Assembly: GCA_005791535.1 (NCBI GenBank)
Contig: SXWH01000267.1
Location: 1 to 33,727 of the forward strand
Length of the DNA: 33,727 nt
Reading direction: 5' to 3'
DNA from: Verrucomicrobiaceae bacterium
Lineage (GTDB): Bacteria > Verrucomicrobiota > Verrucomicrobiia > Chthoniobacterales > Chthoniobacteraceae
Part shown: piece by piece, positions 1,535-11,747 of the stretch
How positions within the stretch are numbered: position 1 is the first letter of the stretch
Layout: every line of letters starts with the position of its first letter
Translations under genes and position numbers: made by a program
Notes under the pieces: generated by a model
Database searches by the model: none
Seen by the model: the letters and a program-made list of their open reading frames with translations, nothing else
What the model was told of the DNA's origin: nothing

Positions 1535-2620
1535 TCAGCAGTCGCCCGCGCCGCAGGTTCCCGCGATGGCATAGCAATCCACGCACAAAACGCGGCCGCC
1601 CACCTCGGTGGCGTCGGGCTTTCCGCATTCGGAGCAAATTTGCGGCGGCTTGCGCATCAGCGAGTGAACGCGTGTGAAGTGGCCATCGTCGAAACCCATC
1701 GCGCGTTTGATTTGGTAGTCCCGCTCGAGCACATTCGGGTGCGCCTGCCACGTGCGGTATTTGTCCCACGGGATGAATCCGCGCAACGCCGCCCAAAGCC
1801 CGGAGCAGGGGACCGGGTAGTCGCTTCCGTGGAGCAGGCGGTCGCGCAGCAGGCCGGGCATTACGCATTTTCCCGCGTAGCGTCCGCGCAGTGGAACATT
1901 CCAGGCACTCGTGTCGCCGTAGAGATTCGGGAAGCGATCGAGCATTTTCACGAACTCGTGGAAATACTCCGGGTCGCCCAGTCCGCTCTTCGTGGCGGAG
2001 TGCGCGGCGATGCACGTCACACCGATTTCCAGCGGCTGCACGAGCACGTTCGGGTCGGAGTATTTTGGCTCGATGACCTGCACCGTGTGTTCGCCGCCGG
2101 TGTGCGCAAGCAGCGGCAGTTTTGCCTCGGCCATGCGCTCCCAAAACTTCCGGTAGCGACGGTCGTTGCAATCCACGTTGTGGCAGTTTGGCAGGAGTTT
2201 CAGCATCACGGCACCTCCGGCGAGGCAGCGTTCGAGTTCCTCCAGCGCATCGGGCCGCGCGGGATGAATGCTCACGGCTGGCAGGAACTCGCGGTGTTGT
2301 TTGCACAGGCGCAGCAGGTAGTCATTCGGCACGTAAAACGAACCGGCGTCCTGCTTCGTGCCGTCGGGTGAATACACTTCATCCTGCGCGAGCAGGACGA
2401 TTGCGCCGAGCGACGACGTGCGAACGAGCGTGAGCAGATGTTCCGCGAACCGCTGGTCAAAGTCCTCCGCTTGAATCGACAGGCCGCCGAGACCGATGTG
2501 GCGAAGCATGTAAGCCGCCATCGGTTTCTGCCACCAAGTCGCACCGAGCTTCACCCAGCAACCCGAGCCGCTGCGGCCGTTGCCGACGAGGTGAACGTGC
2601 ATGTCTATTGGAGTATTCAT
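1535..2620 (-). CDS. Amidohydrolase (amidohydrolase-2 / COG2159 type) with C-terminal Cys-rich tail
   Basis: A 361-residue TIM-barrel metal-dependent hydrolase. It opens with the metal-binding HxH motif (MHVHL, H8 and H10). Later landmarks are LLAHTGGEH, CIAAHSATKSG and LLHGSDYP, which place His and Asp ligands at the strand ends expected for the family. Substrate is unknown. The last 33 residues form an added tail with C329-x2-C332, C346-x2-C349 and further Cys at 356 and 361, which looks like a small zinc-ribbon. There is no signal peptide, so it should be cytoplasmic. The ATG at 2620 overlaps the stop of the upstream S9 peptidase as ATGA, so it is probably translated by coupling. A longer in-frame reading to 2911 runs through the peptidase gene in another frame and is Arg-rich, so it is not used. 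Confidence 0.85.
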   Translation of the reverse strand: MNTPIDMHVHLVGNGRSGSGCWVKLGATWWQKPMAAYMLRHIGLGGLSIQAEDFDQRFAEHLLTLVRTSSLGAIVLLAQDEVYSPDGTKQDAGSFYVPNDYLLRLCKQHREFLPAVSIHPARPDALEELERCLAGGAVMLKLLPNCHNVDCNDRRYRKFWERMAEAKLPLLAHTGGEHTVQVIEPKYSDPNVLVQPLEIGVTCIAAHSATKSGLGDPEYFHEFVKMLDRFPNLYGDTSAWNVPLRGRYAGKCVMPGLLRDRLLHGSDYPVPCSGLWAALRGFIPWDKYRTWQAHPNVLERDYQIKRAMGFDDGHFTRVHSLMRKPPQICSECGKPDATEVGGRVLCVDCYAIAGTCGAGDC

Positions 2621-5121
2621 GGCGAGCGAGGTTCCACATTGAGAAGGTGGCGGACGAAGAAATCCATCCGGCGCCGGCTGGCGTAGGGCGTTTCGGCGGC
2701 GCCGTGGTTGGTGGAGGGCATGACGAGGAGGTCGAAGTCTTTGTCCGCTTTCACGAGGGCGTTGGCGACTTGCATCGTGCTGGCGGGGTCCACGTTCGTG
2801 TCCACTTCGCCGACGACGAGGAGGAGTTTGCCGGTGAGTTTGTGGGCGTGGACGACGTTGGAGTTCTCGGCGTACCACGGGCCGACTTCGCCGAGCCACG
2901 CTTCGTTCCACCAGATTTTGTCCATGCGATTGTCATGGCAGCCGCAGTCCGCGACGCCCACTTTGTAGAAGTCGCCAAAGTGCAGGAGGCCGGAGAGCGT
3001 GTTTTGCCCGCCCGCGCTGCCGCCGTAGATGCCGACGCGGGTGAGGTCCATCCAGGGACGCGTTTTCGCTGCGGCTTTCATCCATGCGATACGGTCTGGG
3101 AATCCTGCGTCCTTGATGTTGCGCCACGCGACGTCGTGGAATTTTTTGCCGCGCCAGTTGGTGCCCATGCCATCGAGTTGCACCACTATGAAGCCCAGCT
3201 CGGCCATCATGTGCTGGCGTGTCTGGCGTCCCCATTCTTTCGGCGCGAAAAAGCCGTGGGGCCCGGCATAAATTTCTTCGATGACGGGATACTTTTTCGC
3301 GGGGTCGAAATTGGATGGGCGGATGATGATGCCGTGGATGTCGGTCGTCCCATCGCGGCCCTTGGCGACAAAACGCTCGGGCATTGTCCAGCCGGCGGCG
3401 ATTTGCGCGGTGGCTTCGGCTTTTTCGAGCATGCAGGAGAGTTTGCCGGTGGTGGTGTCGCGGACTTCGGTGACGGGCGGTAGGTCGACGCGCGAGTAGG
3501 TATCAACGAGCCAGCGGCCATTCGGCGAAAGCGTGAGGTCGCCGCCGCGTCGGCCGCCGCTTCGGGTGCCGTCGCCGCCGGTGATGACGGTGAAGCCGGA
3601 GCCGTCGAAGTTCACGCGGGCGATGTGGAAAAAGTAGGGGTCTTGTCCGGCGTGAAAGCCCATGACGCGGAGCCAGAGCTGCTGCTTTTCCTCATCCACG
3701 CGGATGACGCTGGAGACGTTCCATTCACCGCTCGTGATGCGGTTTTTCAGCGCGCCGGTTTTGGCGTCGAAGCGGTAAAGGTGGTTCCATCCGTCGCGCT
3801 CGCTGGCCCACAGGAAGTCGCTGGTTTTATCGAGCCAGCGCGACCACGTCTTCTGCGAGTAGTCCACGAACGTCGCGCTCTTTTCCTCGACGAACGTGCG
3901 CGCCTCGCCGGTGGGTTTCAAGGCAACCCAACGGAGGACTTGATGCCCGCGCTCGTTGTAGAGGAAGACGAACTCGGAACTGTCGGCCTGCCAGCGGAAT
4001 TCGCCGAGGCTCCACGGTTTCGGAAAGAGGTCGTTTTTCACCGCGACCGGTTTTCGCACGGCGATGTCGAAAAGGCGCAGCTTCGGCTCGGCGATGCGGT
4101 CGCCGGGCTTGAGATACTGCTGCTTGTGGAGCTTTGGCTGGAGTTGGTCCTTCGGCGATGACTCGACGAAATAGACCGTGTACTCCTGCTCAGGCCGCTC
4201 CTGCACGGCGACGACGAATTTTCCATCCGGCGAAAAATACGCGCGGTCGAGATACGGGTCGTCCTTCGTTCCGTCGCGCGAAAGCTGAACCTCCTCGCCG
4301 GTCTCACGGTGCTTCAGCCAGAAGTTCGCATCGCGTGTGAAAGCTTTCCACTGCTGCGGGGGCTGTTGCGGTTGCGGCGGCTTTGGACGCGGCTCCTCCT
4401 TTTTGACCGCTTCGGCTTTCGGTTCGGGGATGACTGCCTCGATTTCCTTCGCCCGTCCCTCAAAGACGCCGAGCGGCACGCCGCCGGGCGATTCGACGAA
4501 CCACACATGGCCTTCGAATGTGTGCTGCTTGTAGGTTTCGCCGGGCTTGAGCGTGTTGTATGTTTTCCGTCCGCCGCTGCTGTCGATCCACCACAGCACC
4601 GCGTCGCCGCCGCTTTTATTCACGAACGTGATGTGCGTATCCGTGCCGCCGTCCTCGCGGCTCGGACGCGGCTTCAGAGACTCGGCGACGGCTTCCGGGT
4701 CAATGTCGTCCGGCACTTCGCGGAGCACGCCGGTGTCGTTGGCGAAATGCCAGCGTTTCCCCTCGAAGCGGAATCGCACCCACTGCTCCGTGCCGTTCAC
4801 TTTCAGTGCCTCGACGGGAAGTTTCGCGGGGTCCGGATGCTTCAGCGCAGCGGCGAGTTTTGCATGATCAAATGCGGGCGCACGTGTGCCTTTCGCGCAG
4901 TCCACGAAGACGAACTCCCATCCGCCGCCGCCGGTCTCGACCTTGTACCAAAACGTGTCTCCGTCCGGCTGCCAGTTCGGTTTTACCGCGCGCATGAGCA
5001 CCTTGCCGTCGGTGCGTTTCGCCAGCGACATGGCGCGCTCGTAGTCGGCCTTGGTGCCCTGCGCGAAAGTGGAGAATGGAAGAAGAATGAAAAGGAGAGC
5101 GCGAACGAGCATCCGATACAT
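2617..5121 (-). CDS. Secreted S9 (DPP-IV-like) peptidase with inserted VHL-beta-like domain
   Basis: An 834-residue serine peptidase of family S9 (dipeptidyl-peptidase IV type), likely exported: residues 1-20 are a signal peptide (start at M1, or at M4, base 5112). The beta-propeller covers about 260-580 and contains SERDGWNHLYR. The alpha/beta-hydrolase domain follows, with the catalytic triad S702 (GGSAGG), D774 (GEVDTNVDP) and H806 (STNHGAAE). Residues about 163-231 are an insert resembling the beta domain of the von Hippel-Lindau protein, with W178, Y188, H200, T201, H205 and W207 at the spacing of the pVHL hydroxyproline pocket. A Pro/Lys/Glu/Gln linker (232-257) joins it to the propeller. 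The Glu-Glu motif that binds the peptide N-terminus in human DPP4 is not obvious, so dipeptidyl versus oligopeptidase specificity is open. The stop overlaps the amidohydrolase start. Confidence 0.9.
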   Translation of the reverse strand: MYRMLVRALLFILLPFSTFAQGTKADYERAMSLAKRTDGKVLMRAVKPNWQPDGDTFWYKVETGGGGWEFVFVDCAKGTRAPAFDHAKLAAALKHPDPAKLPVEALKVNGTEQWVRFRFEGKRWHFANDTGVLREVPDDIDPEAVAESLKPRPSREDGGTDTHITFVNKSGGDAVLWWIDSSGGRKTYNTLKPGETYKQHTFEGHVWFVESPGGVPLGVFEGRAKEIEAVIPEPKAEAVKKEEPRPKPPQPQQPPQQWKAFTRDANFWLKHRETGEEVQLSRDGTKDDPYLDRAYFSPDGKFVVAVQERPEQEYTVYFVESSPKDQLQPKLHKQQYLKPGDRIAEPKLRLFDIAVRKPVAVKNDLFPKPWSLGEFRWQADSSEFVFLYNERGHQVLRWVALKPTGEARTFVEEKSATFVDYSQKTWSRWLDKTSDFLWASERDGWNHLYRFDAKTGALKNRITSGEWNVSSVIRVDEEKQQLWLRVMGFHAGQDPYFFHIARVNFDGSGFTVITGGDGTRSGGRRGGDLTLSPNGRWLVDTYSRVDLPPVTEVRDTTTGKLSCMLEKAEATAQIAAGWTMPERFVAKGRDGTTDIHGIIIRPSNFDPAKKYPVIEEIYAGPHGFFAPKEWGRQTRQHMMAELGFIVVQLDGMGTNWRGKKFHDVAWRNIKDAGFPDRIAWMKAAAKTRPWMDLTRVGIYGGSAGGQNTLSGLLHFGDFYKVGVADCGCHDNRMDKIWWNEAWLGEVGPWYAENSNVVHAHKLTGKLLLVVGEVDTNVDPASTMQVANALVKADKDFDLLVMPSTNHGAAETPYASRRRMDFFVRHLLNVEPRSP

Positions 5122-5226
5122 TTGGGAAATCGCGGTTCGGGTTGCAAGCTGCGGAGCGTATTGTTTTCGCTCTCCCGGCGGTGTGCGGCATTGCGTGGGG
5201 CGTTCGCATTCACTATTTCCTCCGCC

Positions 5227-6042
5227 ATGGCAAACATCCCACTCGAAGACAGCTACACGGACATTATTGGCAAGGCGATGCGCGGGCTGCGCCTCGATGA
5301 AACCGGCCTGGCATCGCAGGCGGGCGTGAGTATTCCGGAACTCCAGGCGTTACTTGCGGGGGAATTCAGCTCGGCAACGGCCGCGCGCATTACTCCGTGG
5401 CTCGGCTTGAACTCCACCGCGCTGACTGCGCTCGCGGAGAAGCGGTACGCTCCGGCCGACGTCACGCTTGAGGGGCTCGCGATGTTCAACACGCCGTTCG
5501 AGGATATGACCGTGAATGCGTTTCTTGTGTGGGATCCGGCCACAAAGGACGCCGCCGTTTTCGACACCGGCGCCGACGCAAGCGGCATCCTCGCGGAAGC
5601 GCACTCGCGCGTCCTGACGATCAAGCACATCTTCATTACCCACACCCACGGCGATCACATCTTCGATCTGGATCGCCTTCGCGAGAAGACCGGCGCGGAA
5701 GTATGGTCGTGCGAACGGGAGTCCGTGGACGGTTCGCATGTTTTCCATGTCGGTAAAAGCTGGCAACTTGGCTCGCTCAAGATCGAGTCGCGCCTCACAT
5801 GGGGGCATTCGCCGGGCGGAGTCACCTACGTGATCAACGGTCTCGCCCGTCCCGTCGCCGTGGTGGGTGATTCGATTTTCGCAGGCAGCATGGGCGGTGG
5901 AAAGGTGAGCTACGCGGACGCGGTGAAAAATAACGTCGAGCAAATACTCACGCTGCCGGCGTCGACTGTCATTTGTCCCGGTCACGGACCGCTGACCAGC
6001 GTTGGTGAGGAGCAGCGCAACAATCCGTTCTTCGCGAAATAG
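5227..6042 (+). CDS. Metallo-beta-lactamase-fold hydrolase with N-terminal HTH-like region
   Basis: A 271-residue cytoplasmic protein. Residues 8-62 form a short helical region resembling an XRE-type helix-turn-helix (LASQAGVSIPELQALLAGE). Residues 75-270 are a metallo-beta-lactamase fold of the glyoxalase II-like group: HTHGDH at 139-144, GHSPGG at 193-198 (third metal His), D215 in VGDSIF, and H253 in CPGHGP. These are all the metal ligands needed for a binuclear Zn or Fe centre. The likely reaction is thioester or related hydrolysis; the substrate cannot be told. The ATG at 5227 is preferred because upstream in-frame sequence is antisense to the S9 peptidase. It is divergent from the peptidase (105-base gap) and ends at a bidirectional hairpin terminator. 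Confidence 0.85.
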   Translation: MANIPLEDSYTDIIGKAMRGLRLDETGLASQAGVSIPELQALLAGEFSSATAARITPWLGLNSTALTALAEKRYAPADVTLEGLAMFNTPFEDMTVNAFLVWDPATKDAAVFDTGADASGILAEAHSRVLTIKHIFITHTHGDHIFDLDRLREKTGAEVWSCERESVDGSHVFHVGKSWQLGSLKIESRLTWGHSPGGVTYVINGLARPVAVVGDSIFAGSMGGGKVSYADAVKNNVEQILTLPASTVICPGHGPLTSVGEEQRNNPFFAK

Positions 6043-6061
6043 GGCGGCGCATTTGAAAACG

Positions 6062-6098
6062 AAAAAGCCCGCCAGCGTTTTCCGCAGGCGGGCTTTTT
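6062..6098. terminator. Bidirectional hairpin terminator between convergent genes
   Basis: An A5-AGCCCGCC...GGCGGGCT-T4 structure: the stem pairs 6066-6073 with 6087-6094 and extends through the flanking A and T runs. It has a U-tract on either strand, so it can end both the metallo-beta-lactamase gene (stop at 6042) and the convergent secretin gene (stop at 6113). Confidence 0.9.
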
Positions 6099-6112
6099 GT
6101 TTCGTAAACGGA

Positions 6113-7876
6113 TTAGCGTTTCTTCGCTGCCGGCGGCAGTCCCGGGACCGCATACTCGGCTGCGAGAGGGCGATTTGAGCTCGGTTTTAAGCGGATCGCG
6201 CCGCGTGCATTGTTGCGCCAGCCGTTCGGGTCCGCAAACTCCTCGCCGCTGTGGGTGAGGCCGTTCACCTGGGACTCGAGACCGGTTCCATAGCCTTGCT
6301 TGATGATGGTCGGCGTGACGAACACCATCAGGTTGCGCTTCGTGCGCGATGCGGTCTTTTCCTGGAAGAGGTGACCGAACAGCGGGATATCGCCCGCGAC
6401 CGGAACCTTCGTGCGTCCGCGGGTTCCTTCATCCTGGAGTAGACCGCCGATCGCCAGAGTGTCGCCGCTCTTGATGAGGACATTCGAATCAAACGTGCGT
6501 TTGTCGATCACCGGGCTGGAGACCGTTGCGCCTTCGAACACGAAGGTTGCATCGCCGACTTTATTGCTGATTTCGGGCTGGACTTTCAGCGAGACGAATT
6601 TGTCCTTGTTGATGACGGGCGTGACCTTGAGCGTGTTGCCGAACTCCTTGTCCTGGAATCCGCCGAACACGGCCTTTGCCTGCTGTTCGTTGAAGGTCAG
6701 GTTTGGCACCGGCTGTGAGCGCGTGATTTTGATCGTGGCCTCCTGATTGTTCGCGGCGACGATGCGTGGATTCGCAAGGAATTCGGCATCGCTGTCTTCA
6801 TTGAGCAATCGCATCGTCACTGACATCTGCGGGACGGACAGAATCGCAAACTGTCCGGCGATGGCATTCATGAAGCTGCCGCCACGAGTTCCATTGCGGA
6901 GGAAGTTGTTGAGTTTGAAGTCGCCGCCCTGAGCCTGTTCCACGGTCGGTGGAGCACCATTTTCCGATAGACCGCTGCCGCCGTAGCGGAACGTCTGCGC
7001 ATTGCTGGAACTGCCGACTACGCCGGCCCAGTTGAATCCGTAGGCCTGCTTCGGGTTCGCGTTCACTTCGACCAAACGTGCTTCGATCATCACCTGCTGC
7101 GTGGGCGAATCGACGCTGGTGAGGAACTTTTTCACCTTCTCCATGTTCGATTCGTTGTCGCGGAAGAAGATGGTGTTTGTGCGTTTGTCGAATTGCGGTG
7201 CGACGCCGCTGGTGAGTTGAGTCTGAAGCAGCGGCAGAATCTGGTCGGCGGCGGCGTAGCTGAAAGTGTATTGCCCGCTGACCGTCGGCTCCTTCGCTTT
7301 TTCCGCCTGCGTCTTGATGTAGGTCACGCCTTTGCGTTCTTCGACGATGAGTCCGTTCGAATCAGCAATTACGTCGATGACTTCGCGTGGCGTCTTGTCT
7401 GTAAGGCGCAAAGTGACCGTGCCGGTGACTTGAGCGCTGACGATCACGTTCATGTTCGCCTGACGGGCGAGCGTGCGGAGAACCAAGCCGATTTCGTCGC
7501 CTTGGAACTCACTCACACGGCCGGCTGGCGCATTGACGTCGAATGACGGAGCCGTTGCGCCCGTGGCCGGCGCGTTTGGATCCGTGGGAAGTCCGGGCTG
7601 TTCCGGCTGTCCGGGCAGAGCACCCGGATTCGCAACCGGCGGCTCGATCGTAGCCGGAGCAACTCCGCCAGTCGTGGGCGGCGCTATGGGTGCGGGCGCG
7701 GCGGCGTTCCCCGCACCCGGCGTGATTGGCGGAGCAATCGGAGCGGGCGCGGCTGGCGGTGCGATGGGCGCCGGGGTGGATTCCTGTGCAATCGCAGTGC
7801 TGCTCGCGAACACGAGAGCGGTGAGAGTGCGGTGAATATTGGCCTTGGTGCGGGCTGTGATTTTCATGGGCTTCAT
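6113..7876 (-). CDS. Secretin (type II/IV secretion, PilQ/GspD-like)
   Basis: A 587-residue outer-membrane secretin subunit. After a signal peptide (about residues 1-30) there is a Pro/Ala-rich low-complexity region (about 34-105) with repeated APIAPP motifs, then an STN/N0-like domain (RVSEFQGDEIGLVLRTLARQ onward), an N1-type KH repeat (FSYAAADQILPLLQ, then FDKRTNTIFFRDN), and the C-terminal secretin domain ending in the signature VPVAGDIPLFGHLF (491-504) and RNLMVFVTPTII. That is a full PilQ/GspD-type order but short at the N-terminus. No pilus or type II genes adjoin it. The start could be M1 (7876) or M4 (7867). It is followed by the terminator shared with the convergent gene. Confidence 0.9.
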   Translation of the reverse strand: MKPMKITARTKANIHRTLTALVFASSTAIAQESTPAPIAPPAAPAPIAPPITPGAGNAAAPAPIAPPTTGGVAPATIEPPVANPGALPGQPEQPGLPTDPNAPATGATAPSFDVNAPAGRVSEFQGDEIGLVLRTLARQANMNVIVSAQVTGTVTLRLTDKTPREVIDVIADSNGLIVEERKGVTYIKTQAEKAKEPTVSGQYTFSYAAADQILPLLQTQLTSGVAPQFDKRTNTIFFRDNESNMEKVKKFLTSVDSPTQQVMIEARLVEVNANPKQAYGFNWAGVVGSSSNAQTFRYGGSGLSENGAPPTVEQAQGGDFKLNNFLRNGTRGGSFMNAIAGQFAILSVPQMSVTMRLLNEDSDAEFLANPRIVAANNQEATIKITRSQPVPNLTFNEQQAKAVFGGFQDKEFGNTLKVTPVINKDKFVSLKVQPEISNKVGDATFVFEGATVSSPVIDKRTFDSNVLIKSGDTLAIGGLLQDEGTRGRTKVPVAGDIPLFGHLFQEKTASRTKRNLMVFVTPTIIKQGYGTGLESQVNGLTHSGEEFADPNGWRNNARGAIRLKPSSNRPLAAEYAVPGLPPAAKKR

Positions 7877-8136: not shown

Positions 8137-10056
8137 CTAGGACGCGGCGCCGGTTTTCCCGTCGAGAATTGGCGGTGCGACTTCGGTCTTGCCGAAACTC
8201 CGCCATGACCGAAGCGGAACGCATCCCAGCGCGATGACCACCACATTGAAAATGATGAAGCCGTGCAGAGCGTAGAATGCAGCGTCCATGAAGCCGTAGC
8301 TGTGCAGCCCGATGCCGAGCATGTTGGTGCCGAACCACGACCATGCGGTCACTGCATTGCCGAAGATTGTGAGGTTCATGAACCCGCGCTCCCGCACCAG
8401 ACCGCCGAGACGCGCGTGCAGAATGAGTGCATTCCAAATGACGATGAGAAGTGCTCCGTTTTCCTTCGGGTCCCATCCCCAGAAACGACCCCAGCTTTGG
8501 TCCGCCCAGATCCCGCCGAGCACCGTGCCCACGAAGCTGAAGAGCATCGCGAAGCAGACGATTGCGAAACACGCGCTGTAGAATGCTTTGTTGAGATCGG
8601 GCGTGATGTTCTTCGTAAATACGCCGTTCATGACGTAGAAAATCCCGAGGAAACCGGCCACGAACGTCGCTGCGTAGCCGAGCGTCACAATCACGACGTG
8701 GGTCGCGAGCCAGAAGTTCGTATCCAGAACCGCCCGGAGCATGATGAGTGTGTCGCCATCGAGCGACAGATAGTGCGCGACGGTGAGACAGATGAAAGCC
8801 ATCAGCGAGGCCACGGCGACGCCGAGTCCGCGCGGCCAGAAGGTTTCCATGAGGACGCCGAAGAGGGCCGCGCCCCATGCGATGAACAGGGCTGACGAGT
8901 ACAGGTTCGTCACCGGCGGGCGGCCTTCGTGGACCATGCGAAAAATTAGCCCGCCCGTAATGATGATGAGCGTGAACCACGTCAGCCATACCGCAGTGCG
9001 CCGCGACCACTCCATGCGCATTGGCGAGAACCACATGAGCACCGCGAAAAGGAAGGCGACGACTGATATGATCATCCCCTGATAGAAAAGTTGCGTGTAA
9101 TTGAACCACTGTTCGCTGGAGGCCTTTTTGAGCCTCCGCGTGCCTTCCTGCGTACCTTCGAGCGCTGCACGATAATCAGCGACGGCGGTGCTGAATGCCG
9201 TGGCGTCCTTCGCCCGGTAGGCGGCGGCCATTTTCGCGTATGATGCGAGGGCGAAATTCGGCTGCCCGCCGCGTTCGATATTCAGCAGGTCGCGCACGGC
9301 TCGGCTCCACTCTGCGCGTGCATCCTGTCCGCCCGATGGTGGCAGGACGAGCGGGACGGCTTCATCCTCGCGTTCACTGAACCACGCGAGCGCCTCTGCG
9401 TCCGGTGCTTTGCCGTCCATTTGCGCTTCGAATGCCTCGCGCGCCTTTTTGAGCATCGCGAGGTCCGTTTCGAGACCTTTTGCAAGGTCGCCGCCGGCGG
9501 CAGAACCGAGCGCAACTTTCAGCGTTTTGTAGGCGCGGATGGCCTTCCATAAATCGACGAGCGCCCGCTGGTAGGCGTCGCGAAGTTCGTCCTTCACACG
9601 AAATGCCCGCTGGGTCTCGGATTGAAGGGCTGCGAACCGCGGTTCGATTTGTTTCCACGTGTAGTGTTTTCCGTCGGACTGAGCTTTCTCATTCGCATCC
9701 ATCGGCACGCCGAGCAGGCCCTTCACATCCGAATGGTCAATGCGGAAAGCAGGGCGTGTGTCCGCCGTCGCAGGATCCATCATCACTTCCATCATCCATT
9801 CGATGGCGGAAAGGATTTTCGGATTATCGAAATTGCTCTTCCACGGCTCGGTATTGAGCGTCTGTTTGCCCCGCAGTTGGAGAAGCGAGTTTCTCGCGAG
9901 TGAATCGAGCGGCTGAATCCGGCCGCTTTCTACGATCGGCAGCTTTCCGAATTCCACGGTCGGGAACTCACCGGCCTTGTCCTTCGGGCGTCCGAGTTTT
10001 CCGCCGACCATTCCGACGAAGATCAGCGTGATGATGAGAGGCAGCCATTTTTTCAT
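8137..10056 (-). CDS. ccsA: Cytochrome c biogenesis protein, CcsA/ResC-like
   Basis: A 639-residue membrane protein of the CcsA/ResC half of system II cytochrome c maturation, which handles heme and attaches it to apocytochrome c outside the cytoplasmic membrane. One TM helix at about 5-20 anchors a long soluble region (about 30-325); about eight TM helices follow. The WWD heme-binding motif starts at residue 517 (WADQSWGRFWGWDPKEN). The expected flanking features are HEGRPPVTNLY before it, the THVVIVTLGYA segment, and NMLGIGLHSYGF after it, supplying conserved His. The soluble N-terminal region is much longer than in chloroplast CcsA (about 320 residues), so part of the length is lineage-specific. 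It overlaps the upstream ResB-like stop by 4 bases (ATGA). Confidence 0.93.
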   Translation of the reverse strand: MKKWLPLIITLIFVGMVGGKLGRPKDKAGEFPTVEFGKLPIVESGRIQPLDSLARNSLLQLRGKQTLNTEPWKSNFDNPKILSAIEWMMEVMMDPATADTRPAFRIDHSDVKGLLGVPMDANEKAQSDGKHYTWKQIEPRFAALQSETQRAFRVKDELRDAYQRALVDLWKAIRAYKTLKVALGSAAGGDLAKGLETDLAMLKKAREAFEAQMDGKAPDAEALAWFSEREDEAVPLVLPPSGGQDARAEWSRAVRDLLNIERGGQPNFALASYAKMAAAYRAKDATAFSTAVADYRAALEGTQEGTRRLKKASSEQWFNYTQLFYQGMIISVVAFLFAVLMWFSPMRMEWSRRTAVWLTWFTLIIITGGLIFRMVHEGRPPVTNLYSSALFIAWGAALFGVLMETFWPRGLGVAVASLMAFICLTVAHYLSLDGDTLIMLRAVLDTNFWLATHVVIVTLGYAATFVAGFLGIFYVMNGVFTKNITPDLNKAFYSACFAIVCFAMLFSFVGTVLGGIWADQSWGRFWGWDPKENGALLIVIWNALILHARLGGLVRERGFMNLTIFGNAVTAWSWFGTNMLGIGLHSYGFMDAAFYALHGFIIFNVVVIALGCVPLRSWRSFGKTEVAPPILDGKTGAAS

Positions 10057-11747
10057 GATTGTTTCCTCCTTCTCGAGAACATGAGCAGGTGCATTAGAAA
10101 GTGACGCGTCATGCCGTAGCCGACGAGTGCGCAGCCGTAATACGGTGTGAACCAGCCGGGGTTTTTCACGACCTGGAGCGTGCTGGTTCCGCGGCTCGCG
10201 CCAGCCTGCTCGCGACCCATCTGGTGTTGGTAAAATGTGAGGCCTCCGTACCGTAGCGGATTGTTCATCGAAATCTCCACGCGGTCGCGGTTCACGGCGG
10301 CGTTTGGAGCAGAGACGTGAACGGTGCTGCGGAAATCCTTCGGGATCTCCGTACCCTCGTATTTCTCGTGCGTTGTTTTCAGCAATGTGACGTGGAATTG
10401 GTGGTAGTGCCGCTCAAATCGGATTGCCGCCCGCCATTCCTTCCCGCCGACTTCGAATTTCTGCTCGCGCAACGTCGGTGACAGAAGCCATGTGCCGAGT
10501 TTCGTTCCGCCTGCGGTGATTTCCACCACGGCCGCCGGCATATTGCGGTCGTCCATGCCGCGTGCGATTACCCGTGGAATCATAAAGAAACGCTGGGCCG
10601 CGCCTTTGTCGCCCGGCGCAGGCGGGTCGGTCTCCGTGATGTCCTTGCCGGCTTCCATCATTTCCGCGGCGTATTGGCCATCGGACATCGGGCGGTTCTT
10701 GAATGCCTCAAGCATTTCGGCGCGGAAGCGCGATTTCAGGCCCGCTGCGAACTTCGTTGCCTTTGCGGGGTCTGCGACGATTCGCTGCACGGCTGGAAGC
10801 GGGTCGATGTCCGCCTTTTCGCCAAGTTCAGCCAGCGCAGCGCGCCAGATTTGAATCTTACCGCCTTCTTGAAACACCTTTTTCGCCTCCTCCATGAGCA
10901 GGTCCGGAGTGGCGTATTTTGCCTCCATCGTGGCCATGGCTCCGCGAAGCATCCCGAGCTGCTTGATGGCTTCGGCGCGTTCGACGACGCTCGCATTTGG
11001 CGAATATTGAACTAGCTTGAACGTGAACGGCAGATTCGGGTCGCTGACGGTCTTGCCGGCGGCGAGCAACTCCTGCGGAATAGCCACGACCTTGTCGCGG
11101 CCTTCCGGGTCATCGGTGATGAACACCATCTCGCTGTCGTGATGGTGTTCGCTGTAGTTGCGGGTCTCGCCCTCCGCAAAACTCATGTGCGATTCCACCG
11201 AGAATAGGTCGGTGAGCAATTGACCGACGAGCAGGGTGATGATTCCCAGATGGACCGCATCGACGCCGATTTTCTTTCCGCTCGCGGTGGGCCACACAAT
11301 CATGTCCACGAGAATCAACGCCGCGTAAGCCATGAAGAGCCAGAGCGGACTCCAGAGCAAAAAATGCGTCACCAGCCACAGCGCGATGAACACGAGCACA
11401 TAGTGCGTGAGCATCGCCCCCATTCCGCCTGGCGGACGCTCAAAACGCCGGAAATGCGCGCAAAATACATTCGCCAGAAACGCAAAGCCGATGGTGTAGC
11501 CGCCCGGGAAAACCGGCAGCACCCACCAGCCGTCGCCCGCGTGCCGGATGACCAGCCAGCTTTGGAACCACCGCTCCTGAGCCATGTAGAGGCCCTCCGC
11601 TTTTTGCGCCAGTGTGCCGGCGAAAACCAGCCATCCGCCGAGCGCGAGCAGGACGATTGCGAGCCTCACCGAAGTCAGCAGATTCCACACTTTCCGAGCC
11701 GGTGAAGTGCCCTCGGATTTCGGTTGTTGAGTTTCAGTCGTGCTCAT
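10053..11747 (-). CDS. resB: Cytochrome c biogenesis protein, ResB/Ccs1-like
   Basis: A 564-residue partner of the CcsA-like protein; together they form the system II cytochrome c synthase. TM helices lie near residues 28-46, 82-97, 112-131, 133-152 and 163-182, followed by a large extracytoplasmic domain (about 183-535) and a last TM helix near 537-557. The N-terminal segment SVRLAIVLLALGGWLVFAGT resembles the ResB start, where a short loop follows the first helix. The C-terminal part of the soluble region (NPLRYGGLTFYQHQM) matches the conserved ResB segment in which a product of the form YKG(L)xFYQ is usual. Both ends are 4-base ATGA overlaps, with the lipoprotein upstream and ccsA downstream, so the three are one translationally coupled unit. 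Confidence 0.88.
   Translation of the reverse strand: MSTTETQQPKSEGTSPARKVWNLLTSVRLAIVLLALGGWLVFAGTLAQKAEGLYMAQERWFQSWLVIRHAGDGWWVLPVFPGGYTIGFAFLANVFCAHFRRFERPPGGMGAMLTHYVLVFIALWLVTHFLLWSPLWLFMAYAALILVDMIVWPTASGKKIGVDAVHLGIITLLVGQLLTDLFSVESHMSFAEGETRNYSEHHHDSEMVFITDDPEGRDKVVAIPQELLAAGKTVSDPNLPFTFKLVQYSPNASVVERAEAIKQLGMLRGAMATMEAKYATPDLLMEEAKKVFQEGGKIQIWRAALAELGEKADIDPLPAVQRIVADPAKATKFAAGLKSRFRAEMLEAFKNRPMSDGQYAAEMMEAGKDITETDPPAPGDKGAAQRFFMIPRVIARGMDDRNMPAAVVEITAGGTKLGTWLLSPTLREQKFEVGGKEWRAAIRFERHYHQFHVTLLKTTHEKYEGTEIPKDFRSTVHVSAPNAAVNRDRVEISMNNPLRYGGLTFYQHQMGREQAGASRGTSTLQVVKNPGWFTPYYGCALVGYGMTRHFLMHLLMFSRRRKQS

Follow-up and report, generated by a model that had tools for sequence, protein, structure and literature searches.

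What is a domain resembling the hydroxyproline reader of animal oxygen sensing doing inside a bacterial peptidase? The question is raised by a contig of Verrucomicrobiaceae bacterium (SXWH01000267.1 of assembly GCA_005791535.1; the whole stretch of 33,727 nucleotides is called the window here), in which an open reading frame on the minus strand (2617..5121) encodes an 834-residue S9, DPP4-like peptidase with Pfam matches to VHL, DPPIV_N and Peptidase_S9. In animals, pVHL takes the hydroxyproline of HIF, and its pocket has also become a handle for PROTAC drugs. Residues 161-231 of the peptidase (4429..4641, minus strand) correspond to the seven-stranded VHL beta domain by Pfam, sequence match to pVHL, AlphaFold2 and Foldseek. 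The initial annotation of the window suggested that this domain docks hydroxyproline-rich peptides, and the idea has gained support, because the pocket is conserved in relatives of the peptidase and hydroxyproline-pathway genes lie beside some of them. Judging from sequences, predicted structures and gene neighbourhoods, we propose that the VHL beta domain probably recognises hydroxyproline and docks peptides containing it onto an exported, DPP4-like S9 peptidase, whose products would enter hydroxyproline catabolism.

The identity of the domain, read as VHL-like from the letters in the initial annotation, was borne out by profile searches. Pfam VHL (PF01847) covered residues 162-208 at E = 1.4e-5, its 25.4 bits exceeding the cut-off of 21. 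When a 92-residue stretch was compared with the PDB sequences by phmmer, 24 pVHL sequences were found at E values of 1.2e-4 to 7.1e-4, and the only two non-pVHL matches up to E = 10 had E values of 1.1 and 2. A profile of 72 bacterial domains reached the pVHL sequences with E values between 1e-11 and 1.1e-10, the next match being a fibronectin at 0.029. In the alignment shown, this profile ran gap-free across the pocket, with its positions 2-61 on residues 65-124 of the 213-residue pVHL chain 8qvu_F, and the pVHL residue numbers used here agree with it. Since Pfam, phmmer and the profile all matched VHL, the resemblance is well beyond chance, and a chance motif was set aside.

The predicted fold agrees. 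AlphaFold2 placed strands at residues 161-168, 174-179, 185-191, 196-202, 206-210, 216-221 and 227-231, followed by a linker and then the propeller region, and the model of the isolated domain had a predicted local distance difference test score (pLDDT) of 88.9. All 50 PDB matches listed for this model were VHL entries, hydroxyproline-peptide complexes among them (template modelling (TM) score by query length 0.76-0.86, root-mean-square deviation 1.2-3.1 Å). Thus, residues 161-231 are confirmed, by sequence match and predicted model, as a VHL beta domain with the pVHL beta-sandwich fold. The best structural match is the human pVHL beta domain (PF01847; e.g. 1vcb, 4ajy, 7cjb), which shares the seven-stranded sandwich as well as the identity and spacing of the pocket residues. 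Unlike human pVHL, the bacterial domain has Thr in place of Ser111, is built into a probably exported peptidase, and shows no alpha domain with an Elongin C box, since the three Pfam matches obtained at E values up to 10 include no second VHL family.

The pocket was read on the minus strand as W178 (4588..4590), Y188 (4558..4560), T201 (4519..4521), H205 (4507..4509) and W207 (4501..4503), which align without gaps with pVHL W88, Y98, S111, H115 and W117. The spacing claimed in the initial annotation therefore stands, and its numbering and coordinates for F166, W178, Y188, H200, T201, H205 and W207 were exact in the 834-residue minus-strand frame. In pVHL, S111 and H115 are the partners of the hydroxyproline hydroxyl. 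From the gap-free alignment to pVHL together with the fold match, we infer that the pocket side chains would meet in one site.

To obtain conservation figures we used 80 S9 loci collected with catalytic-domain patterns, because the motif patterns presupposed parts of the motif. A rigid regular expression had matched 6 of 25 rows and a looser one 24 stretches; 23 of these, with the window and L058, formed alignment A1 (L059 was left out), and the hidden Markov model used to call VHL domains in the 80 loci was built from these motif-selected rows. From the Pfam search of the phylum genomes, four VHL matches in other assemblies, weak or frame-broken and possibly stray DNA, were excluded (L027, L028 and L029 with broken frames; L033 with 25 columns only). 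For the alignment of the peptidases, L091 (unknown residue), L132, L136 and L137 were dropped from the 80, and 11 of the remaining 76 rows were dropped as well, so that alignment A3 held 65 rows plus P0001, 66 in all. Alignment A4 held 71 of the 74 VHL domains and the window.

Among the S9 relatives, position 178 was Trp in 73 of 73, position 188 Tyr in 71 of 73 (Phe in 2), position 201 Thr in 69 of 74 (Ser in 5), position 205 His in 73 of 74 (Asp in 1) and position 207 Trp in 73 of 74 (Phe in 1). Outside the pocket, N168 was Asn in 72 of 72 and G204 was Gly in 70 of 74. The five pocket columns all fell within the seven lowest-entropy columns of the 74 domains, together with N168 and G204 (the ranking omits one column with residues in just 2 rows), while mean column identity was 48% and identity to the window's domain 24-55%. 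With Thr and Ser counted alike, all five pocket residues were present in 69 of 73 complete domains; the exceptions were L078 (W207F), L133 and L118 (Y188F) and L134 (H205D).

Could such conservation simply maintain the structure? In this alternative, the conserved residues would hold the sandwich or dock it onto the peptidase, and there would be no external ligand. Both tryptophans and the strand-1 Asn are kept in most VHL domains found at the C-terminus of sulfatases, so the motif is partly fold-related, and the VHL domain of the window lies within the enzyme's N-terminal portion, ahead of the propeller region (Pfam, AlphaFold2). The composition of the pocket, on the other hand, varies by partner protein. 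Ala replaces the pocket His in the C-terminal VHL domains of five sulfatases (L151, L179, L180, L175 and L052 at 4876-6729), in a sialate esterase (L170) and in an S9 peptidase with a C-terminal VHL domain (L173); a leucine-rich-repeat protein has Asn there. A sixth sulfatase (L032) retains the His and has lost the Tyr; all six sulfatases were confirmed by Pfam. Because Ala is found in the sulfatase, sialate esterase and L173 domains, the VHL fold tolerates loss of the His. As these sequences have it, the pocket His is dispensable for the fold, yet it is nearly always retained in the S9 class, and L051, another S9 peptidase with a C-terminal VHL domain, has kept it along with the other four pocket residues. 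The VHL domain can also be missing altogether: five S9 relatives (L124, L127, L135, L138 and L139) clearly lack it with the peptidase intact, and since they lie in separate parts of a quick tree, we read this as repeated loss. (L132 had no VHL match and is uninformative, because the contig boundary cuts the gene off past the position that the domain would occupy.) A purely structural or interface role is thus unlikely in our estimate. We also considered and set aside an internal ligand, such as the protein's own proline-rich linker. This flexible segment, about residues 237-257 (4351..4413, minus strand), follows the VHL domain, with pLDDT below 50 at residues 237-252.

How widely the fusion occurs bears on its origin. 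A scan of genomes with the S9 alignment gave at least 593 stretches and at least 576 relatives, of which the best 80 were kept, and 74 of these carried the VHL domain. This is a biased rate, because the 80 loci were chosen for their closeness to a query that itself carried the domain. By title, the loci come from Verrucomicrobiota, Planctomycetota, Armatimonadota and Poribacteria, some (e.g. Akkermansia, Klebsiella) being doubtful names of metagenome-assembled genomes. Within this set, the closest relatives are Spartobacteria metagenome-assembled genomes, with at most 83% identity over the catalytic part, which makes Verrucomicrobiota the probable phylum of the source. In a Pfam search at E ≤ 0.01, VHL turned up in 25 of the 387 genomes searched from the window's phylum, 21 of these exceeding the cut-off, and in 26 of the 199 from the phylum to which G387 belongs (Planctomycetota, going by titles). 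The fusion, which the initial annotation had put forward as a novelty, is therefore widespread among S9 relatives and not special to this genome. The closeness of the pocket segment to animal pVHL might suggest that a eukaryotic VHL gene was captured recently, or that the assembly is contaminated, and the weak, frame-broken matches in L027-L029 could indeed be stray DNA. The domain of the window, however, lies inside an intact bacterial frame, is shared with relatives of several phyla, and has diverged among them to the identities given above. Recent capture or contamination was set aside for this wide bacterial spread, and we consider it extremely improbable.

Hydroxyproline-pathway genes were sought around the S9 loci, which were read with flanks of up to 5 kb (each flank reaching 4 kb or more in 42 of the 80). 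An epimerase-type gene was present in the flanks of eight of the 80 (L078, L084, L089, L110, L111, L116, L131 and L133), and any of an epimerase, FAD oxidoreductase, DHDPS-family or aldehyde dehydrogenase gene in 12 of the 80, with two or more in six. The presence of these hydroxyproline-pathway genes beside VHL-S9 relatives is a new observation of this analysis. All 12 linked loci carry the VHL domain; the VHL-less group is too small for comparison. Epimerase and other pathway genes were also found at three of 20 further S9 loci (L041, L046 and L050). Homologues of all four pathway enzymes lie beside the S9 gene in L133, and of three in L116, L078, L110, L041, L046 and L050. In L116, five genes (DHDPS-family, DUF885, epimerase, VHL-S9, FAD oxidoreductase) follow one another directly on the same strand as a tight operon. 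The DUF885 protein adjoins the epimerase there (2300-4096), and a DUF885 protein adjoins the S9 gene in L109.

In NCBIfam, 4-hydroxyproline epimerase came first for the epimerase, with 376-381 bits, and proline racemase scored 169-208. The aldehyde dehydrogenases and oxidoreductases could be assigned only to families; the better-scoring models included those for 2,5-dioxovalerate and alpha-ketoglutaric semialdehyde dehydrogenase. On the quick tree, adjacency to pathway genes was scattered (10 changes for 11 rows); L078 is titled Armatimonadetes, and the other linked loci Verrucomicrobiota or kin. In the source genome (G000; 5.16 Mb, 294 contigs, 86.6% complete), which has one VHL domain above the cut-off in the genome search (28.7 bits), likely homologues of the four pathway enzymes are spread over different contigs: the epimerase on C244, an oxidoreductase 56% identical to that of L078, an aldehyde dehydrogenase 55% identical to that of L133, and a DHDPS-family protein 59% identical to that of L116.

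If the chance of an epimerase is taken as 0.002 per 10-kb neighbourhood of a 5-Mb genome, the eight linked loci among 80 give a binomial p of 6.5e-12, assuming independence. A search for the Pro_racemase family, which includes the 4-hydroxyproline epimerases and does not separate them from sister enzymes, found it in 40 of 387 genomes of the window's phylum; several of the matches adjoined VHL genes, of S9 type in G217, G243 and G339 and of other types in G178 and G251. In this phylum, the racemase family occurred in 15 of 30 genomes with any VHL versus 25 of 357 others (p = 6e-9), and in 7 of 21 genomes with S9-type VHL versus 33 of 366 others (p = 0.003). When epimerase-family loci of VHL-negative genomes were read (20 of 25), an S9 peptidase of this kind was found at none of the 20, and another pathway gene lay nearby in 17; L250, L254 and L264 in this set matched the racemase family weakly and lacked any further pathway gene.

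Several points weigh against the proposed docking role. Hydroxyproline-linked genes were absent among the window's own reading frames that were scanned, and pathway-type genes were absent from the flanks of 68 of the 80 S9 loci. In four of the 12 linked loci (L087, L094, L103 and L104), a DHDPS-family or FAD-oxidoreductase gene alone is a weaker sign. The random-stretch control favours the link but is small: pathway-type genes were absent from all 20 arbitrary 12-kb stretches of twelve VHL-bearing genomes, and against these the 12 of 80 alone give p = 0.12. The epimerase scores are below the strict NCBIfam cut-offs (442-450 bits), and two of the eight epimerase-linked domains have an aromatic exchange in the pocket (Trp207 to Phe in L078, Tyr188 to Phe in L133). 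In Planctomycetota, the racemase family was found in 11 of 31 genomes with VHL versus 22 of 168 others (p = 0.004); this is co-occurrence only, as no pair among those listed was nearer than about 366 kb. All the co-occurrence tests ignore kinship and genome size. Finally, part of the pocket conservation may serve the fold instead.

Another possibility is a pocket for proline, or for some other small ligand that is cyclic or hydroxylated, such as a sugar, rather than for hydroxyproline in particular. A Xaa-Pro aminopeptidase (M24 with AMP_N) adjoins six of the 80 S9 relatives and two of the 20 further loci, which would fit proline, and the occurrence of VHL on sulfatases and a sialate esterase, enzymes acting on sugars, would fit a sugar. 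Yet the best-matched neighbour is a 4-hydroxyproline epimerase, and among the domains on sugar enzymes the His is lost in six of seven, with the seventh (L032) lacking the Tyr, whereas the S9 class has kept the Thr or Ser and the His, the hydroxyl partners in pVHL. We therefore regard a proline or sugar pocket as quite improbable, and somewhat less probable than a purely structural role.

The catalytic part speaks to the substrate as well. The Peptidase_S9 domain covers residues 634-826 (2644..3222, minus strand; Pfam E = 3e-42), and its triad would be formed by S702 (3016..3018), which aligns with the GWSYGG serine of btDPP4, D774 (2800..2802) and H806 (2704..2706), all on the minus strand and all invariant in the 66 rows of A3. 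These would be the nucleophile, acid and base, respectively. Aligned to btDPP4, the enzyme also has D734 and W738 (2908..2922, minus strand, from D734 to W738), both invariant in the same rows, where DPP4 carries its S1 tyrosines (Tyr662 and Tyr666 in human DPP4). A conserved CGCHDN motif adjoins this region. The initial annotation had assigned the enzyme to a proline-specific S9 family: the S9, DPP4-like part of that assignment holds, given DPPIV_N, Peptidase_S9 and the invariant triad, whereas strict proline specificity is doubtful because both S1 tyrosines are replaced. A polar S1 site suited to hydroxyproline is possible, although this is a guess from the residues present. The closest solved relatives, for the whole protein by fold and for the catalytic part by sequence, are bacterial DPP4 and prolyl tripeptidyl aminopeptidase of family S9, which were also the top structure matches of the whole AlphaFold2 model (mean pLDDT 90.4, predicted TM score 0.83). 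The present enzyme differs from them in its VHL insert and in having Asp and Trp for the S1 tyrosine pair. In NCBIfam, the Dpp5 model gave 43 bits against a cut-off of 900.

Residues 1 to about 21 (5059..5121, minus strand) read by eye as a probable Sec signal peptide ending ..FSTFA-QG, and several relatives have a similar hydrophobic start followed by Q-G, so the peptidase is probably exported. DPPIV_N covers residues 254-549 (3475..4362, minus strand; Pfam E = 6.9e-35). In the mechanism that we propose, the exported enzyme would take the 4-hydroxyproline ring of a peptide into the W-Y-T-H-W pocket, and candidate sources of such peptides are collagen-like, plant wall or algal wall proteins. 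The pocket would hold or orient the hydroxyproline-containing peptide for cleavage by the serine peptidase, and other peptidases, e.g. Xaa-Pro aminopeptidase, may complete the breakdown. Free hydroxyproline would then pass through the 2-epimerase, D-hydroxyproline dehydrogenase, the deaminase and the semialdehyde dehydrogenase to 2-oxoglutarate, in the order given in PMC7883544.

That paper describes a collagen and hydroxyproline cluster of Colwellia BB5 in which the epimerase, D-hydroxyproline dehydrogenase, deaminase, alpha-ketoglutaric semialdehyde (KGSA) dehydrogenase and peptidases occur together. The Colwellia cluster has the same pathway enzymes and peptidases as the loci here, but it is built round an M9 collagenase, and the term VHL is absent from the main text of the paper. 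VHL domains in bacteria are already known (Pfam matches; PMC9002001). The Litorilituus sediminis protein of PMC9002001 is, as the present peptidase probably is, a secreted bacterial protein with a VHL beta domain, and the paper proposes tumour suppression for it; the main text names hydroxyproline once, for HIF, and peptidase and collagen do not appear in it. Among the matches listed from the open-licence PMC literature, PMC9002001 was the only paper with a bacterial VHL domain as its subject, and no paper joined bacterial VHL domains with peptidases or hydroxyproline.

If the docking role is true, the VHL fold would have a second role, with bearing on the origin of hydroxyproline reading; a substrate would be predicted for a large family of unassigned peptidases; and small domains might be gained with which hydroxyproline peptides could be detected or enriched. 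More broadly, and with slightly more doubt than belief, we suggest that hydroxyproline recognition by the VHL fold could be a general bacterial scavenging device, used on exported peptidases and altered on AraC-type regulators, that the reader of animal oxygen sensing shares its chemistry, and that the bacterial use perhaps came first.

The regulators in question are AraC-type helix-turn-helix proteins with a weakly VHL-like C-terminal segment, a lesser sign of the hydroxyproline link (L212:5555-6760, L213:4723-5985 and L258:11012-12259; E = 1.8e-5, 6.3e-5 and 1.1e-4), encoded near hydroxyproline-pathway genes. Pfam VHL found no match on the three segments, and their pocket is mostly lost, with the Trp kept and the His changed to Ser; on these grounds, the regulators may sense something else or nothing.

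VHL domains were also found on a MORN-repeat kinase, on small stand-alone proteins and on a family of about 400 residues with an HExxH motif. The stand-alone proteins (L039, L043 and L157; 127-180 residues) have a hydrophobic start and one VHL domain with the pocket intact. In the HExxH family the VHL domain is N- or C-terminal; members are L059:5290-6447 (on contig C15 of the source genome), L155, L161, L166, L167, L169, L177, L178, L204, L206 and L207. Among those aligned, the pocket His was kept in eight of eight and the Tyr replaced in three of eight. The members scanned had no further Pfam family above the cut-off, and weak matches were to ATLF in L155 and L166 and to Peptidase_M90 in L178. 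VHL-less kin of this family adjoin S9 genes in L094, L110, L124 and L133. A 1663-residue frame in L058 has up to three VHL-like repeats, and Pfam on the scanned part (L034) matched VHL only. In the window itself, the neighbours at 1538-2911, 6116-7876 and 8140-11747 are amidohydrolase, secretin and cytochrome c assembly genes (Cytochrom_C_asm, ResB).

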